From Castellaniella sp. MT123 (GTDB lineage Bacteria; Pseudomonadota; Gammaproteobacteria; Burkholderiales; Burkholderiaceae_B), in the NCBI RefSeq assembly GCF_039614765.1, contig NZ_CP154879.1, positions 1,984,001 to 2,048,000 of the forward strand: a stretch of DNA of 64,000 nt, written 5' to 3'. Made by a program: the position numbers and the translations under genes. Shown here in pieces: positions 26,641 through 35,292 of the stretch. Below the pieces are notes generated by a model. The model did no database searches. It saw nothing but the letters and a program-made list of their open reading frames with translations, and was not told where the DNA came from. Within the stretch, counting starts at the first letter, position 1, and each line of letters opens with the position of its first letter.

Positions 26641-27330
26641 TTATCGATTCAGAAACCGCCAGATCGGCTTGAGCTCGGCCAGCAACCAGCACGAGGGCAG
26701 CACGATCGCCAGGGCAATCAGGCCGCGCCCCGCCCAGTCCTGATCGTCTTGCAGATAAGCATTACACAACCGGATCGGCTGATCCAGATAGACCATGCCG
26801 ACAATGGCGCTCATCCAGCAGAAATTGCCCAGAAAAAACAGCTTGATGACGACGTTGGCCTGACGCAGCGACGCACGCAGCAGCCAGCCGCAGACCGGCA
26901 GACCCAGATATTTGAAGGCCGCAATGCGCCAATCGACCAGCGCATCATCCAGGGCCTTGGGAATCATCCAGCCCGCGCCGATCAAGCTGACCAACAGCAG
27001 ACCTGGGATTCCGTAGGCGTTATACGACCATCGAATCCGCTCTCCGGACGTGGACTTCCACCACAGCCTCTTGCGCGTGGAACCGGATTCGGCGACCGCG
27101 GTCTGCTGCGCTTCCGACGCCGGGGCCGACGCCATGGATGGCGCGCGAGGCTGCCGCCCCGCGTGCCACGCCTGCTCTAGAAAGACGCCACCGAGCACCA
27201 GCAGGGGAATCTGCACCACCATATGCAGGCTCATGAGTCCGGTCAACGTGTCATGCAGGCCCAGGGCGAGCGCCAGGCAGACAACGGCCAGCCCCAGCGA
27301 GACAGGCCCGACCATCCTGGAACGATTCAT
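26641..27330 (-). CDS. Conserved membrane protein of the cbb3-like oxidase operon, function unknown
   Basis: A 229-residue integral membrane protein I cannot assign to a named family. Hydrophobic segments lie at about residues 8-25, 32-52, 108-128, 140-155, 160-182 and 200-220. A charged, Ala/Ser-rich soluble loop is at 58-100 ([20 protein letters not shown]). The last part has a tryptophan/proline-rich pair near [18 protein letters not shown]. The start overlaps the stop of the SCO gene by 4 bases (ATGA), so it is translationally coupled to the copper chaperone and oxidase genes. A role in oxidase assembly or membrane anchoring, analogous to CtaG-like assembly factors, is possible but not shown by any motif. 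Confidence 0.75.
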
Positions 27331-28073
27331 GGCTGTCTCCCGGTCGGGGCTGGCTGCGTGCCTGCGGATCGTGTGTCGGCAGCGGCAGGCGCAGGCCGCG
27401 AACCGTCAGGCTCCACGGACCCGCCGCGCACAGCCGCTTTGGGTTCGACGGTTCCCGACGCGGAAGTCATGAAGGACTTGGCGGCGTTCAGGGCCCAGCC
27501 CGGATCATCCAGATCCACGATGCGGGCCAGACGCCCATCCGGCGTCACGATGTGAAACGCGGCGTTGTGCTCGAATTCGCCCAGCGGCGCGGGCACAACC
27601 ATGATCCCGAACAGGTCCAGCACCGCATCGCGCTGAGCGGGCTGGGTAAAGGACAGGAACTGCCAGACAGTGGTATCGGCCCCCATCCGGACCGCATACC
27701 GGGCCAGGTCCCGGGCCTGGTCACGCGGATCGAAACTGATGCTGATGAGCCGGATCCGGTGCTGCAGCCCCTCGGCCTCGATCGCCTGCTGCAGGCGCTC
27801 GGTCAGGGATCCCTGTGCCAGACACAAGGCGACACAGCGCGTATAGAAGAAGTTGACGATCGCCACGCGGCCGTCGTCCCGCAGATTACGGGTGAGCAAA
27901 TCGACCCCACCGGCGGAGTCCAGCACATGCGCCGCCGGCACGGGCTGGGGCTGCGCGGCCACCGCCTGGCGCCGGGCGGCCTCGGCCGTCAGGACGGTGA
28001 AGCCATCCGTCAGGCCGTACAGCGTCCCGATGCCCGCCACCAGGGCCAGCACCAGTGACAAAATCCACCGCAT
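27327..28073 (-). CDS. SCO1/SenC/PrrC-family copper chaperone
   Basis: A 248-residue thioredoxin-fold protein of the SCO family, anchored by an N-terminal helix (residues 1-22) with the domain in the periplasm. The copper-binding CxxxC motif is at C80/C84 (NFFYTRCVALCLAQGS), and the third ligand histidine is H169 in GEFEHNAAFHIVTPDGR. SCO proteins deliver copper to oxidase subunits; in cbb3 enzymes some act on CuB assembly. The C-terminal 45 residues are a Pro/Ala-rich tail. It lies 15 bases after the monoheme cytochrome gene and overlaps the next gene by 4 bases, placing it in the oxidase operon. Confidence 0.9.
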   Translation of the reverse strand: MRWILSLVLALVAGIGTLYGLTDGFTVLTAEAARRQAVAAQPQPVPAAHVLDSAGGVDLLTRNLRDDGRVAIVNFFYTRCVALCLAQGSLTERLQQAIEAEGLQHRIRLISISFDPRDQARDLARYAVRMGADTTVWQFLSFTQPAQRDAVLDLFGIMVVPAPLGEFEHNAAFHIVTPDGRLARIVDLDDPGWALNAAKSFMTSASGTVEPKAAVRGGSVEPDGSRPAPAAADTRSAGTQPAPTGRQP

Positions 28074-28088
28074 GACGTGTCCCGGGTC

Positions 28089-28670
28089 TTATTTGCCCAG
28101 CAGCGGACGCAGATCTTCGTCGCCCTTCCAGGGGATGGTCTGCCCCTTGGTTTCCTCGCGGACCTTGGCCACGAACGCGGCATCGATCTTGGAGGCGGAG
28201 TTGCCAAAGCTGGTACGCACATGGCTGATGATCGCGGCCAGTTCCTCGTTCGAGAACTTATCCTGGAAATGCGGCATCTCGCCGTTGTATTTTGCGCCTT
28301 CGACGGTCAGCGGACCATGGATGCCGTGCAACACGATGCGCACCATGATGCTGGCATCGGCCGCATCGACCCATTCGGACTTGGCCAGCGGCGGGAACAC
28401 CCCCGGGACACCGGCCCCGCTGGCCTGGTGACAGGCCACGCAGTTGGCGGTGTACAGCTGACCGCCGTCGGCCGTCACGGGCACGGCAAAGTCGGCTGCC
28501 ACCCGATCGTCTCCGACTGAGGGCGGCATCGGGGTATAGCTGACCGCCAGGTGATACACCGCCCAGATGAACAGGAGGGCGATGACCGTCAGTACGATCT
28601 TGGGAACTGGCCGGCTGCCTTCGTGAGGTTCCGGCTGTTCACGACGCTGCTGAGTGAACTTGTTGCTCAT
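28089..28670 (-). CDS. Membrane-anchored monoheme c-type cytochrome (CcoP-position)
   Basis: A 193-residue cytochrome c with one N-terminal transmembrane helix (about residues 24-43) and a single heme-binding motif, C77-x2-C80-H81 (NCVACHQASGAGVPG). The probable distal methionine is in YNGEMPHFQDKFSNEE. It occupies the operon place where diheme ccoP normally lies but has only one CxxCH. It probably passes electrons to CcoO/CcoN. The start overlaps the ccoO stop by 4 bases (ATGA). No CcoQ-like gene is present next to it. It could instead be an independent electron donor; the coupling to ccoO favours a subunit role. Confidence 0.88.
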   Translation of the reverse strand: MSNKFTQQRREQPEPHEGSRPVPKIVLTVIALLFIWAVYHLAVSYTPMPPSVGDDRVAADFAVPVTADGGQLYTANCVACHQASGAGVPGVFPPLAKSEWVDAADASIMVRIVLHGIHGPLTVEGAKYNGEMPHFQDKFSNEELAAIISHVRTSFGNSASKIDAAFVAKVREETKGQTIPWKGDEDLRPLLGK

Positions 28671-29323
28671 TTCTTCGCTCCATCCTCAGCCGCTGTCGCC
28701 TTGATTCGGGCGGCGGACTCGTCCTTGACGACCTGGGGCAAGGTCGCATCCGGATTAACTGGGTACGTATGATCCAGGCCAATCAGGTAAGCCACCAGAT
28801 CGAGAGCCTGAGGCGACGCGACCACGACCTTGCCCGCAGGCGCGAAGCTGGGCGGCAGGTTGACGACCTTGTCGCCGGCATCGGCCTTGTCCTTGAGTTT
28901 GAACATGAACGGGAAGGACGGCATGGTGCTGCCCGGCGTGTAGGCACGCGGTTCGTACAGGTGTCCCAGGTTCCAGTCCACGCTGGGCTGGCGCGCCCCG
29001 ACATTGAACAGATCGGGCCCGGTCCGCATGGTGCCCATCAAGTGGGGGTTGTCGTAGTAATAATCGCCCGCCACCGGCGCACGCCCCCAGCCGCGCTGGA
29101 AGTCGGGCGCCATGGACTGGCTGCGCGGCTGCTGCGAATGGCAATAGACGCAACCCATCGAGATGTAGACTTCGCGGCCACGCAGCTGCTGTTCCGTATA
29201 GGGCTTCAGGCCCGGCGAAGGCTGCACGTTGTCCAACTGCAGGTAGGGCACGACGACCAGGGTCGCTGTGGCCAGGGCGAGGGTCACCATCGCCCCACTA
29301 AGGAGTTTGTATTCGCTTTCCAT
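28667..29323 (-). CDS. ccoO: cbb3-type cytochrome c oxidase subunit II (CcoO)
   Basis: A 218-residue monoheme membrane cytochrome. It has an N-terminal anchor helix (about residues 8-28) and the heme c motif C58-x2-C61-H62 in SMGCVYCHSQQPRSQ. RGWGRAPVAGDYYYDNPHLMGTMRTGPDLFNVG is the CcoO signature region (positions about 78-110), and STMPSFPFMF supplies the methionine ligand. It transfers electrons from a soluble or membrane cytochrome to the CcoN hemes. It begins two bases after the ccoN stop and overlaps the following cytochrome gene by 4 bases. Sequence and synteny support CcoO clearly. Confidence 0.94.
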   Translation of the reverse strand: MESEYKLLSGAMVTLALATATLVVVPYLQLDNVQPSPGLKPYTEQQLRGREVYISMGCVYCHSQQPRSQSMAPDFQRGWGRAPVAGDYYYDNPHLMGTMRTGPDLFNVGARQPSVDWNLGHLYEPRAYTPGSTMPSFPFMFKLKDKADAGDKVVNLPPSFAPAGKVVVASPQALDLVAYLIGLDHTYPVNPDATLPQVVKDESAARIKATAAEDGAKK

Positions 29324-29325
29324 GA

Positions 29326-30999
29326 TCAGGCACCTGCAATCGCCTGACTTTCAGGCTGAAACTTACGGTTGTGCAACAGGGCGGGGCCCACGCGGCTCGT
29401 GCCATAACGCAGAGCCATCAGCACGAAGTGCACGGCAAACACCAGGTGACCCAGGGTCATCAGAGAACCACCCAGCGTGCGGCCTTCGAGGTACGGAATC
29501 GTGACCCGCACCGAATCCATGAAGGGCTTGGAGGCATCCAGCATGTCCAGACCCTGCAGCCAGCCGCCCGTGGACAGGCTGACGAAATAAATGCCGATGC
29601 CGATCGTCACCAGCCAGAAATGCAGGCTGATGAGCTTGGGATGCGGCCATTCCCAGGACATGACGCGCGGCATCACAAAATAGATGGCGCCGAACATGAC
29701 GATCGAGAAGAACGCGTACAGGCCCAGGTGAGCATGCGCCACGGTGAAGTGCGTGAAGTGCGCGACCGTGCTGACACTGCGCAGAGCTTCGAAGGATCCT
29801 TCGAAGGAGCTGAGCGTATACATCATCGCGCCGACCACGATGAAGCGCAGCGTGGGCGAATAATACATGGTCTTGAACTGGCCACGCATCGTCAGGTGCT
29901 GGTTCACCGAGAACGCCAGCACGGGGATGATCATCATCATGGACTGCACGATGGACAGCGAGATCAGCCAGTGCGGCACAGGACCGCCGACCAGGTGGTG
30001 ACCGCCAACCTGCCCGTAGAAGAAGGCCAGCGCCCAAAAACCGATCAGCGACAGGTTGTAGGACTGGATCGGACGGCCGACGATTTTCGGCAGGAAGTAA
30101 TACACGGAGGCCAGGGCGATCGGCGTGTAGTACAGCCCCAGCACATTGTGGCCGAACCACCAGTTCATGGTCGCCTGCTCGACGCCGAAGTGCACGCCCG
30201 GAACCTTGCCGATGAAATACAGGATGGGAAACCAGAACAGCGCCGCGCCCATGTACCAGATCGACACGTACAGGTGATCGACCTTGCGGTTACGCAGCGT
30301 GAAGACCAGCGGCAGCGCGATCAGCGCACCGCCGATGACCAGCAGGATGCTGACCTGCCAGGGAATTTCCAGCCATTCCAGGCCGTCATTGATGCCCACG
30401 GCGATGCTGCCCAGGCCGGCGATCAGGCCGGCGTTCCACAGCATGCAGCCCAGCAGCGCGAAACGGCCGCCGTACAAGCGCGTCTTCAGCAGGCGCGGCA
30501 GTACCCAGGTAGCGATGCCGAAGGCCGCCATCGGACACCAACCATACGCCACCATGTTCAGGTGCAGCGTGCGGGTGCGCCCGAAGGTCAGCCAGGCATA
30601 CTGGGTCAGGAATTCGGGGTTATGCAGCTTGATGGAGCTGATCAGGCCGAAGGTGGACGCCACCACCAGCCACACGATGGCACAGGACAGGAAGACAAAT
30701 GTGACGTACGCCGTGGATTGGTCCGCTTCCATCCGGTCGGCCAGTTCGCGCTTGAGCTGGTCGGCCAGCGACGGATCGATGACGGCCTTGCCGCCTTCGG
30801 TCACGGTCTTTTGCAGGCCGGCCCGCTGCTCGGGCGTGGCGGAAGGGTCTTCGACGTGGCCGATTTCGCCCGTCGAAAAAATGACCCCGGCTGCGGCAGG
30901 GTTGTCGTCGAACATGTTCCGCCGCAACGACCAGATAAAAATACCCAGCCCCGTGACGGACATGATGAAGGTCAGGAGTAATACGGTGACGGTATCCAC
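29326..30999 (-). CDS. ccoN: cbb3-type oxidase catalytic subunit CcoN with N-terminal CcoS-like segment
   Basis: A 557-residue heme-copper oxidase subunit I. From about residue 92 it matches CcoN: heme b and CuB histidines in RTLHLNMVAYGW, WWFGHNVLGLYY, VGGHHLVGGPVPHW and THFTVAHAHLGLYA, the SYNLSLIGFWAL segment that holds the cross-linked tyrosine region, and LSSFEGSFEAL. The first roughly 52 residues form a separate single-helix unit. It reads FIMSVTGLGIFIWSLRRN and then MFDDNP with an acidic VEDP tail. This resembles the assembly protein CcoS, followed by a charged linker. The start chosen is a GTG (30999) with GGAAG upstream; another ATG at MSVTGLG is possible. It heads the oxidase operon and reduces O2 to water. 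Confidence 0.9.
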   Translation of the reverse strand: MDTVTVLLLTFIMSVTGLGIFIWSLRRNMFDDNPAAAGVIFSTGEIGHVEDPSATPEQRAGLQKTVTEGGKAVIDPSLADQLKRELADRMEADQSTAYVTFVFLSCAIVWLVVASTFGLISSIKLHNPEFLTQYAWLTFGRTRTLHLNMVAYGWCPMAAFGIATWVLPRLLKTRLYGGRFALLGCMLWNAGLIAGLGSIAVGINDGLEWLEIPWQVSILLVIGGALIALPLVFTLRNRKVDHLYVSIWYMGAALFWFPILYFIGKVPGVHFGVEQATMNWWFGHNVLGLYYTPIALASVYYFLPKIVGRPIQSYNLSLIGFWALAFFYGQVGGHHLVGGPVPHWLISLSIVQSMMMIIPVLAFSVNQHLTMRGQFKTMYYSPTLRFIVVGAMMYTLSSFEGSFEALRSVSTVAHFTHFTVAHAHLGLYAFFSIVMFGAIYFVMPRVMSWEWPHPKLISLHFWLVTIGIGIYFVSLSTGGWLQGLDMLDASKPFMDSVRVTIPYLEGRTLGGSLMTLGHLVFAVHFVLMALRYGTSRVGPALLHNRKFQPESQAIAGA

Positions 31000-31097
31000 A
31001 GTGCTTCCAGTGAAGGACAAATGAAGCCCGGACCCAGATAAAATCAAGCCCGGCGACCCGGAATTGTAGCGCCAGTTTTGATCTATGATAAATCCGC

Positions 31098-31116
31098 ACA
31101 TCTTTTACAGAGATGT
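31098..31116. promoter_or_regulatory. Inverted repeat in the ccoN/osmC-like divergent spacer
   Basis: The 264-base spacer between the divergent ccoN and OsmC-like genes contains ACATCT (31098-31103) and AGATGT (31111-31116), a perfect 6-base inverted repeat separated by 7 bases. It is near a TTGAT-containing AT-rich patch at 31078-31091. It could be a regulator site, but no consensus for a known factor is met. The rest of the spacer shows no gene. Confidence 0.3.
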
Positions 31117-32597: not shown

Positions 32598-32732
32598 CGA
32601 TACCCCTGGCCAAGGCATTCAGTCGTGACTGTGTCCGGTTTTTCAGGGGGCTAGTCCATTGCCATAGTCGGCATTTGAGCGAGTTTGGCCTTTCAGTCCC
32701 TTTTAATTCAATATTTGTTGTATTATGGATCT

Positions 32733-33056
32733 ATGAACGAAGCTCAAACTGTCTCTGCGCTTAGCGCACTCGCCCACACTCAACGTCTGCGAGTGTTTCG
32801 TGCCTTGGTTATCGCCGGCCTGGAAGGGCAGACACCCAGCGTCCTGGCCGAGCAGCTTGAGGTGGCACGCAACACGCTATCGTTCCACCTAAAAGAATTA
32901 GCCCATGCCGGTCTGGTCACGATCGAGCAGCAAGGCCGCAACCACATCTACCGCGCCGACTTCTCCCAGATGAATGGGCTGCTTGGCTATCTGACCGAGC
33001 ATTGCTGCCAGGACGGCGTATGCGAAGTATCCCAGTCCTCCCACTGCAACTGCTAA
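32733..33056 (+). CDS. arsR: ArsR/SmtB-family arsenic-responsive repressor
   Basis: A 107-residue winged-helix ArsR-family repressor. The HTH is LAEQLEVARNTLSFHLKELA, followed by wing VTIEQQGRNHIYRADF. It lacks the ELCVCDL arsenite site of plasmid R773 ArsR in the helix before the HTH. Instead it has a C-terminal cysteine cluster, C91, C92, C97, C105 and C107 (EHCCQDGVCEVSQSSHCNC), resembling the C-terminal type of site described for Acidithiobacillus ferrooxidans ArsR. It should repress the downstream arsDA genes until arsenite binds. The ATG choice gives the family start; an upstream in-frame extension is AT-rich noncoding DNA. Confidence 0.92.
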   Translation: MNEAQTVSALSALAHTQRLRVFRALVIAGLEGQTPSVLAEQLEVARNTLSFHLKELAHAGLVTIEQQGRNHIYRADFSQMNGLLGYLTEHCCQDGVCEVSQSSHCNC

Positions 33057-33152
33057 TGCCATGACCTCCAGCACCATCCACAACCGCACTCTTCATCTGT
33101 ACGGGCAATTCCGCACGCTCCATTCTCACTGAAAGATTCGAAAGGACACCCT

Positions 33153-33512
33153 ATGCCAAACATCCAGATTTTTGACCCGGCACTGTGTTGCAGCACAGGC
33201 GTCTGTGGCATTGAAGTCGATGAGAACTTGGTGAAATTCGCCGCCGACGTAGACTGGGCTACGCAAAGCGGAGCCCAAGTCGAACGCTTCAACCTGGCAC
33301 AGCAGCCCTTGGCTTTCGCAGAGAACCCAACCGTCAAGGGCTTCCTGGAACGCTCGGGACAAGAAGCGCTTCCTCTGGTGCTCGTCAATGGCGAAGTGGC
33401 CTTGGCTGGCCGCTATCCCAACCGTAGCGAACTGGCCCGCTGGGCTGGCCTTCAGGTGTCTGAAGCGCCTTCCACGCAAGGCGCTTGCTGCTCTGGTGGC
33501 CGCTGCTGCTGA
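33153..33512 (+). CDS. arsD: Arsenite metallochaperone ArsD
   Basis: A 119-residue ArsD, which binds arsenite or antimonite and hands it to the ArsA ATPase; it can also act as a weak repressor. The three chaperone cysteines are exactly placed: C12, C13 and C18 in FDPALCCSTGVCGIEVDE. VERFNLAQQPLAF, GRYPNRSELARWAGL and the C-terminal vicinal pairs in ACCSGGRCC match the R773 protein. A purine-rich site (GAAAGGA) lies upstream of the ATG. It is between arsR and arsA, with 13 bases to arsA. The 96 bases between arsR and arsD contain no convincing gene. Confidence 0.95.
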   Translation: MPNIQIFDPALCCSTGVCGIEVDENLVKFAADVDWATQSGAQVERFNLAQQPLAFAENPTVKGFLERSGQEALPLVLVNGEVALAGRYPNRSELARWAGLQVSEAPSTQGACCSGGRCC

Positions 33513-33525
33513 ATCAGGAGGGACC

Positions 33526-35292
33526 ATGCATTTTTTGACTCAACCACCCCGTTTTCTTTTTTTCACCGGCAAGGGGGGCGTCGGCAAGACTTCCATCGCC
33601 TGCGCAACGGCGGTACAACTGGCCGCGCAGGGTCAGCGCGTGCTGCTAGTCAGCACCGACCCTGCTTCCAACGTGGGGCAGGTTTTCGGTGAGCACATTG
33701 GCAACCGCATCACGGCAATTACCACAGTACCGAACCTGTGGGCGCTGGAAATCGATCCGCAGGCGGCGGCACAAGCCTACCGCGACCGCATTGCGGGGCC
33801 TGTGCGGGGCGTCCTGCCGGACGATGTGGTCAGAGGCATCGAAGAATCCCTGTCAGGCGCGTGCACGACGGAAATCGCTGCCTTCGATGAGTTCACAGCC
33901 TTGCTGACTGACGCTGCGTTGGTGCAAAACTATGAGCATGTCATTTTCGATACGGCGCCTACCGGACACACCATCCGTCTGCTGCAACTGCCTGGCGCAT
34001 GGAGCGGCTTTCTGGAAGCGGGCAAAGGCGATGCGTCATGTCTTGGCCCTTTGGCGGGGCTGGAAAAGCAGCGCAGCCAATACAAGGCTGCCGTGAAAGC
34101 ATTAGCTGATCCCCTGCGAACCCGCCTGGTGCTGGTGGCCCGCGCACAGCGCACTGCGCTGCGCGAGGCTGCACGCACCCACGAAGAACTGGCCGCCATC
34201 GGCCTGTCGCAGCAGTACTTGGTCATCAATGGCGTCTTCCCCGCTGGCGAGACCGAAAACGATGCCCTGGCCACCGCTATCTACAACAGAGAACAGGCCA
34301 CGTTGGCCGCCATCCCGCAGGGGCTCCAGGCGCTACCTCAAGATCAGATCGCACTCAAACCATTCAATCTCGTGGGCCTCGAGGCCTTGCACCAACTGCT
34401 GGTCAATACCGACGCCACACCGGACACCAATGCCGCTGAACTGCCGGCCCGGCTGGATGCGCCAGACTTGTCCTCCCTGGTCGATGAGATTGCCGCCGAT
34501 GGGCACGGGCTGGTCATGGTGATGGGCAAGGGTGGCGTAGGCAAGACCACGCTGGCCGCGGCCATTGCCGTGGAACTCGCCAGCCGAGGGCTGCCTGTCC
34601 ATCTGACCACCTCGGATCCGGCTGCGCATCTGGCCGATACGCTGGAAGGTTCGTTGCCTGACTTGACGCTCAGCCGCATCGACCCGGAGGAAGCGACGGC
34701 ACGCTATCGCCAGCACGTCATGAACACCAAGGGCGCTCAGCTCGATGCCGAAGGCCGCGCGCTGCTGGAAGAAGACCTGCGTTCGCCTTGTACCGAGGAA
34801 ATTGCGGTATTCCAGGCGTTCTCTCGTGCCATCCGCGAAGGGGGAAGGAAGTTCGTGGTGATGGATACTGCGCCCACCGGTCACACCTTGCTGCTGCTCG
34901 ACGCCACCGGCGCGTACCACCGTGACATCGCCCGGCAAATGGGCGAGACGGGCGTTCACTTCACCACGCCGATGATGCAGTTGCAAGATCCCAAGCAGAC
35001 CAAGGTGCTCATCGTTACCTTGGCCGAAACCACACCCGTACTGGAAGCGGCCAACCTACAAGACGATCTGCGCCGCGCAGGCATCGAGCCGTGGGCCTGG
35101 GTCGTCAATAACAGCGTGGCGGCCGCACATCCGCATTCCTCGCTGCTGCGCCAGCGCGCGCGCAACGAATTGCGGGAAATCGAGGCTGTGGCCACGCGAC
35201 ATGCCCGACGCCATGCTGTCGTTCCCCTGTTGACCGAGGAACCGGTGGGGGTGGAGCGTCTGCGGGCCTTGGTGAACTTGAAAGTTTCATGA
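33526..35292 (+). CDS. arsA: Arsenite/antimonite-stimulated ATPase ArsA
   Basis: A 588-residue ArsA with two homologous ATPase halves. P-loops GKGGVGKT are at residues 15-22 and 334-341, and the signal-transduction DTAPTGHT motifs start at D142 and D447. The three arsenite-binding cysteines occupy the same numbers as in the R773 enzyme: C113, C172 and C422. The ATG (MHFLTQPPRFLFF) has a CAGGAGG ribosome binding site. ArsA normally energises the membrane pump ArsB, which is not present downstream; the operon ends shortly after this gene. All catalytic and metal residues look intact, so the ATPase is probably functional. Its membrane partner must be elsewhere, or the system is crippled. Confidence 0.95.
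   Translation: MHFLTQPPRFLFFTGKGGVGKTSIACATAVQLAAQGQRVLLVSTDPASNVGQVFGEHIGNRITAITTVPNLWALEIDPQAAAQAYRDRIAGPVRGVLPDDVVRGIEESLSGACTTEIAAFDEFTALLTDAALVQNYEHVIFDTAPTGHTIRLLQLPGAWSGFLEAGKGDASCLGPLAGLEKQRSQYKAAVKALADPLRTRLVLVARAQRTALREAARTHEELAAIGLSQQYLVINGVFPAGETENDALATAIYNREQATLAAIPQGLQALPQDQIALKPFNLVGLEALHQLLVNTDATPDTNAAELPARLDAPDLSSLVDEIAADGHGLVMVMGKGGVGKTTLAAAIAVELASRGLPVHLTTSDPAAHLADTLEGSLPDLTLSRIDPEEATARYRQHVMNTKGAQLDAEGRALLEEDLRSPCTEEIAVFQAFSRAIREGGRKFVVMDTAPTGHTLLLLDATGAYHRDIARQMGETGVHFTTPMMQLQDPKQTKVLIVTLAETTPVLEAANLQDDLRRAGIEPWAWVVNNSVAAAHPHSSLLRQRARNELREIEAVATRHARRHAVVPLLTEEPVGVERLRALVNLKVS

Follow-up and report, generated by a model that had tools for sequence, protein, structure and literature searches.

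The locus described here represents one branch of the bacterial oxidases that reduce oxygen, in which CcoS, a small membrane assembly protein that cbb3 oxidases require for activity and that is separate in other bacteria, has very probably been built into the front of the catalytic subunit CcoN. The gene lies in the window, a 64,000-nucleotide stretch of the Castellaniella sp. MT123 genome. Such a natural fusion offers a handle on the little-understood CcoS, because it fixes the partner (CcoN), the 1:1 stoichiometry and the side of the tail, and because it permits clean domain-deletion tests.

Start codon, architecture and operon

The open frame on the minus strand runs from an ATG at 31101 to the stop at 29326. 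The initial annotation had nevertheless placed the start at GTG 30999, and this position was borne out: in an alignment of about 95 fused homologs, taken from genome contigs and whole genomes, every row has an ATG, GTG or TTG in the corresponding position, which lies 22 residues ahead of the conserved Trp of FIWSLR, and the frame upstream of it shows no conservation among these homologs. The conserved start position, the GGAAG motif and the location of the sole promoter-like site preceding the gene, which lies downstream of ATG 31101, together indicate that GTG 30999 is the right start (Table 1). No FNR-type box was found near this promoter-like site at one mismatch.

Table 1. Features of the fused gene and its operon (positions in the window)
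Feature	Positions	Strand	Description and basis
Fused ccoS-ccoN gene	29326..30999	minus	557 aa, GTG start at 30999; ORF list, alignments
CcoS-like segment, residues 1-52	30844..30999	minus	Helix 3-26, then WSLRRNMFDDNPAAAGVIFSTGEIGHVEDP; FixS/TIGR00847 matches, hhalign, low dN/dS
Variable charged linker, residues 53-94	30718..30843	minus	Alignment, dN/dS, structure models
CcoN core (C-family haem-copper oxidase subunit I), residues 95-557	29326..30717	minus	PF00115, E 2.6e-78
Candidate ribosome-binding site GGAAG	31004..31008	minus	4 bases before GTG 30999
Promoter-like TTATCA-17-TACAAT (-35/-10)	31063..31091	minus	Consensus match only
ccoO/FixO, mono-haem (CVYCH)	28667..29323	minus	218 aa; family match; order kept in fused loci
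Membrane-anchored mono-haem cytochrome c (CVACH), replacing di-haem CcoP	28089..28670	minus	Family match; fused loci
SCO/SenC-type copper chaperone (CxxxC)	27327..28073	minus	PF02630, E 3.5e-9; fused loci
Multi-helix membrane protein, fifth operon gene	26641..27330	minus	229 aa, no Pfam family; locus comparison

The extra front end of CcoN, first put at roughly 90 residues, comprises about 94, of which 52 are conserved and 42 variable. After its helix the conserved part follows the pattern FIWSLR..FDD..AA.VIF..GE.G..EDP. Measured against near relatives, dN/dS was about 0.06-0.23 for residues 1-52, about 0.05-0.30 for the CcoN core and 0.19-1.0 for the linker, where selection is relaxed. The CcoS-like segment is thus under purifying selection, and the charged linker that had been proposed to join it to CcoN is a variable stretch. 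This linker is not disordered in the structure models, which predict helices at residues 56-68 and from 76 on. The same models, made on a set without two plasmid rows, predicted the single helix of the front end at low confidence (pLDDT 56-69), residues 41-70 being better defined (pLDDT 83-89); since pLDDT is a local measure, they do not position the front helix against the core.

The host of the segment had been called CcoN, which stands insofar as the core is a C-family subunit I with all ligands. H146, H422, H424, H284, H334, H335 and Y328, that is, the haem and CuB His ligands and the helix-VII Tyr by which C-family (cbb3-type) subunits are told, are present in the alignment to 3mk7 and invariant in 87 sequences; 3mk7 was also the best Foldseek match of the core. 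The cross-link Tyr and CuB ligands rule out a nitric-oxide reductase. However, the core is not canonical CcoN and belongs to a divergent C-family clade: it scored 260 bits against TIGR00780, the canonical CcoN equivalog, far under the 583-bit cut-off. With canonical CcoN (TIGR00780; 3mk7, 8smr, 6xkw) it shares the whole fold, the haem b/b3/CuB ligands and the cross-link Tyr, but it is only about 30% identical, bears the extra front end, and is partnered by CcoO, a mono-haem cytochrome and SCO, with neither CcoQ nor a di-haem CcoP. Of 85 loci, 74 had the operon order N-O-mono-haem cytochrome c-SCO-membrane protein; in some members on plasmids or from alphaproteobacteria, the downstream gene is instead a copper-type P-ATPase.

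Kinship of the front segment to CcoS

The first 50 residues had been described as CcoS-like, to be checked by a profile search. Residues 1-59 matched FixS (PF03597) at E 1.1e-4 and 22.3 bits, just under the Pfam gathering cut-off of 23.1 bits, and TIGR00847 at E 6.6e-5 and 22.5 bits (cut-off 28.35); the whole protein reached 16.6 bits against FixS. More than 30 fused relatives passed the FixS cut-off in a genome scan (best 27.5 bits), and when members were scanned singly FixS matched in 18 of 32 and FixQ in none. In profile-profile comparison (hhalign) the segment matched a profile of 42 CcoS sequences at 95.1% (score 40). A chance likeness of any helix is ruled out by a control in which no 62-column window of the CcoN core (42 in all) exceeded a profile probability of 2.7% against CcoS. 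The match to the CcoQ profile was 63% (score 26), and CcoQ/FixQ (PF05545) identity is ruled out by this difference together with the FixQ scan. Profile similarity alone is not exclusive, because the profiles made for CcoS and for CcoQ from genome loci match each other at 94.7%. This mutual likeness hints at a shared origin of the two small proteins.

The finer features of the segment are partly those of CcoS/FixS (PF03597, TIGR00847) and partly its own. The two have in common one N-terminal helix with a polar, acidic tail behind it (here FDD...GE.G..EDP), an equal Met-to-Trp length, conserved W, F-D, A and I-[LF] at matching spacing, and a coding position directly in front of ccoN. Unlike CcoS, the segment is not free-standing but fused in frame to CcoN. 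The CcoS signature GQ[FY][DE]D after the helix is replaced by NMFDD, in which FDD is kept, though more distant fused members have lost it too; the Gln that is invariant in all aligned CcoS has become Met or Leu, and Pro9 and most of the acidic DDD tail are gone. New invariants have appeared in turn (I40, F41, E45 and P52), and the segment goes on with a newly conserved GE.G..E[DE]P. All together, these results make it very probable that the front segment is homologous to CcoS.

Two other accounts of the segment were weighed. It might be just an additional N-terminal helix of a generic kind, or be related to CcoQ, its likeness to CcoS being due to chance. Extra helices on CcoN are known: Rhodobacter capsulatus CcoN carries one, TMH0, before its core as the present protein does (PMC7876108), although that species has a separate ccoS; the resemblance between the CcoS and CcoQ profiles also speaks for this account. 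However, alphaproteobacterial CcoN extensions matched neither CcoS (3.8%) nor the fused segment (4.8%) and show no kinship to either, which rules out identity with the alphaproteobacterial TMH0; CcoS outscored CcoQ as given above; and unfused relatives have a separate CcoS-family gene at exactly this place (see below). We therefore consider this account improbable. Even less credit is due to the idea that translation starts after the CcoS-like segment, or that the frame merely extends upstream by chance. The open frame does reach further, to ATG 31101, but a single start position is kept among the homologs while the part upstream is not, and purifying selection acts within residues 1-52; conserved start codon and selection together rule out a later start.

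Unfused relatives and distribution of the fusion

In the same taxonomic order, five genomes, all from family f25 (G025, G072, G694, G709 and G715), encode the same oxidase clade as two genes. Their core is 42-46% identical to the fused core in those aligned, and the order N-O-c is shared (seen in G025 and G072). Directly before ccoN stands a separate CcoS-family protein of 82-95 aa, whose gene, in those checked, ends in CTATGA, the ATG being the start of ccoN (ATGA overlap). Against FixS this protein scored as high as 33.2 bits (E 4e-8), over the cut-off, and its profile matches CcoS at 97.3% and the fused segment at 96.6% without gaps. Unlike the fused segment, it has kept the GQ[FL]D of CcoS.

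In a maximum-likelihood tree, fused and unfused proteins formed one clade (99/95), within which the fused ones made up one group adjoining the unfused (89/92; 88% of bootstrap trees), a moderate support to be read with the long outgroup branches in mind. The rows L111-L117 and L120 of this tree are a separate CcoN-like clade rather than canonical CcoN, which leaves the fused/unfused grouping unaffected. A further CcoN-like clade (L110 and L156), about 38% identical, is without the front segment; it has a longer CcoO gene, possibly fused to a cytochrome.

The gene is a real CcoS-CcoN fusion, clade-wide and with a surviving unfused stage: the segment is translated as part of CcoN, as had been assumed, since it is in frame with a conserved start, and the unfused state exists naturally. 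In canonical operons too, ccoS lies directly before ccoN (L001, L118), in agreement with the orders ccoSNOQP (PMC2907700) and ccoSNOQPGH (PMC10653808) reported for Betaproteobacteria. A search of open-access papers found no description of a CcoS/CcoN or FixS/FixN fusion, only the gene order ccoSNOQP. Given this adjacency and the unfused stage, a single joining of the two adjacent genes is the simplest history; both its occurrence and its direction are inferred from the tree and from the relatives with separate genes. The ancestor of the divergent clade would have had ccoS directly before ccoN, overlapping its start codon, and a small frame change would have joined them once.

The clade was found in 64 of 250 genomes of the window's own family, and the fused form is scattered across the order (15 of 300 genomes). 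Members occur on plasmids or second replicons in Cupriavidus, Azoarcus, Paraburkholderia, Paracoccus and Indioceanicola. The genome of the window also has a canonical ccoS-ccoN elsewhere; the initial annotation had asked whether a separate ccoS exists, and one does, but it goes with the canonical operon. Immediately ahead of canonical ccoS in this genome (L009, reverse strand) is a gene for a 314-aa P-type-ATPase-like membrane protein, which seems short for CcoI.

We compared 79 genomes with a fused or unfused oxidase of this clade. A strong stand-alone FixS match was present in 67 of the 68 with a canonical CcoN (interrupted in two of them) and in none of the 11 without (p 1e-12, uncorrected for kinship). 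These 11 genomes span 9 genera and 4 families, and one of the assemblies is 89% complete. Stand-alone ccoS thus tracks canonical CcoN and serves the canonical oxidase, and the fused oxidase persists without it. Such persistence would be expected of an oxidase with a built-in CcoS, but also of one that can do without CcoS. CcoG was absent from all 11 genomes. CcoH gave one marginal match among them, a result that says little because CcoH also went undetected in genomes with a canonical oxidase. The two genomes with an interrupted canonical ccoN (G814 and G901) have the fused oxidase, intact in G814 and as one intact and one partial copy in G901.

Proposed role of the built-in segment

Loss of CcoS leaves an assembled but inactive oxidase without haem b, b3 and CuB, which copper partly restores (PMC8267372). 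In the fused protein, the charges predict a CcoS part of one helix with its N-terminus out, the tail and linker being cytoplasmic; as CcoN's own N-terminus would lie on the same side, the fusion would keep the topology of both partners. The segment most likely acts as a 1:1 maturation helper that stays beside its own CcoN and, with the operon's SCO protein as its partner, supports copper and haem loading of the haem b3-CuB site. With the helper built in, the oxidase would need neither a separate CcoS nor CcoG. Reading the sequence evidence in this way, we put the probability of a built-in 1:1 CcoS for copper/haem loading at roughly 0.6.

The main rival is that the CcoS-derived segment now has a purely structural part, as a transmembrane subunit that stabilizes the complex in the manner of CcoQ, CcoM or CcoH; its assembly role would have been lost, or be performed by SCO and the product of the fifth gene. 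That the invariant Gln, Pro9 and most of the acidic tail are gone counts against full retention of CcoS function, yet I40, F41, E45 and P52 are strongly conserved in their stead, which would suit a changed role; the operon lacks CcoQ, and SCO and the 229-aa membrane protein are its constant neighbours. Against this, GQ[FL]D is kept at the unfused stage, and the linker is variable, as expected of a tethered module. A purely structural segment is the less likely of the two, and we favour the built-in assembly helper.

More tentatively, the fusion may define an oxidase subtype in which an assembly factor has become a permanent part of the catalytic subunit; such a subtype would thereby be independent of the usual CcoG, CcoH and CcoS helpers and work with SCO and the new membrane protein of the same operon. 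As it persists without CcoG and stand-alone CcoS, this oxidase would mark a second pathway of C-family oxidase maturation.

Some further observations concern the locus and its surroundings. The 229-aa product of the fifth gene has conserved HM, WMiPkaLD, FFlGNF.wM and RLCN.YL..DQ motifs and is a candidate new copper/oxidase assembly protein. In the core, E400 (SSFEG in the Castellaniella protein) aligns with the Glu that canonical CcoN conserves in STFEG, a position at which Gln is found in most of the fused clade. On the plus strand, at 32730-35292 of the window, lie arsenic genes encoding an ArsR-like regulator, ArsD (E 5e-48) and a two-domain ArsA-like ATPase.
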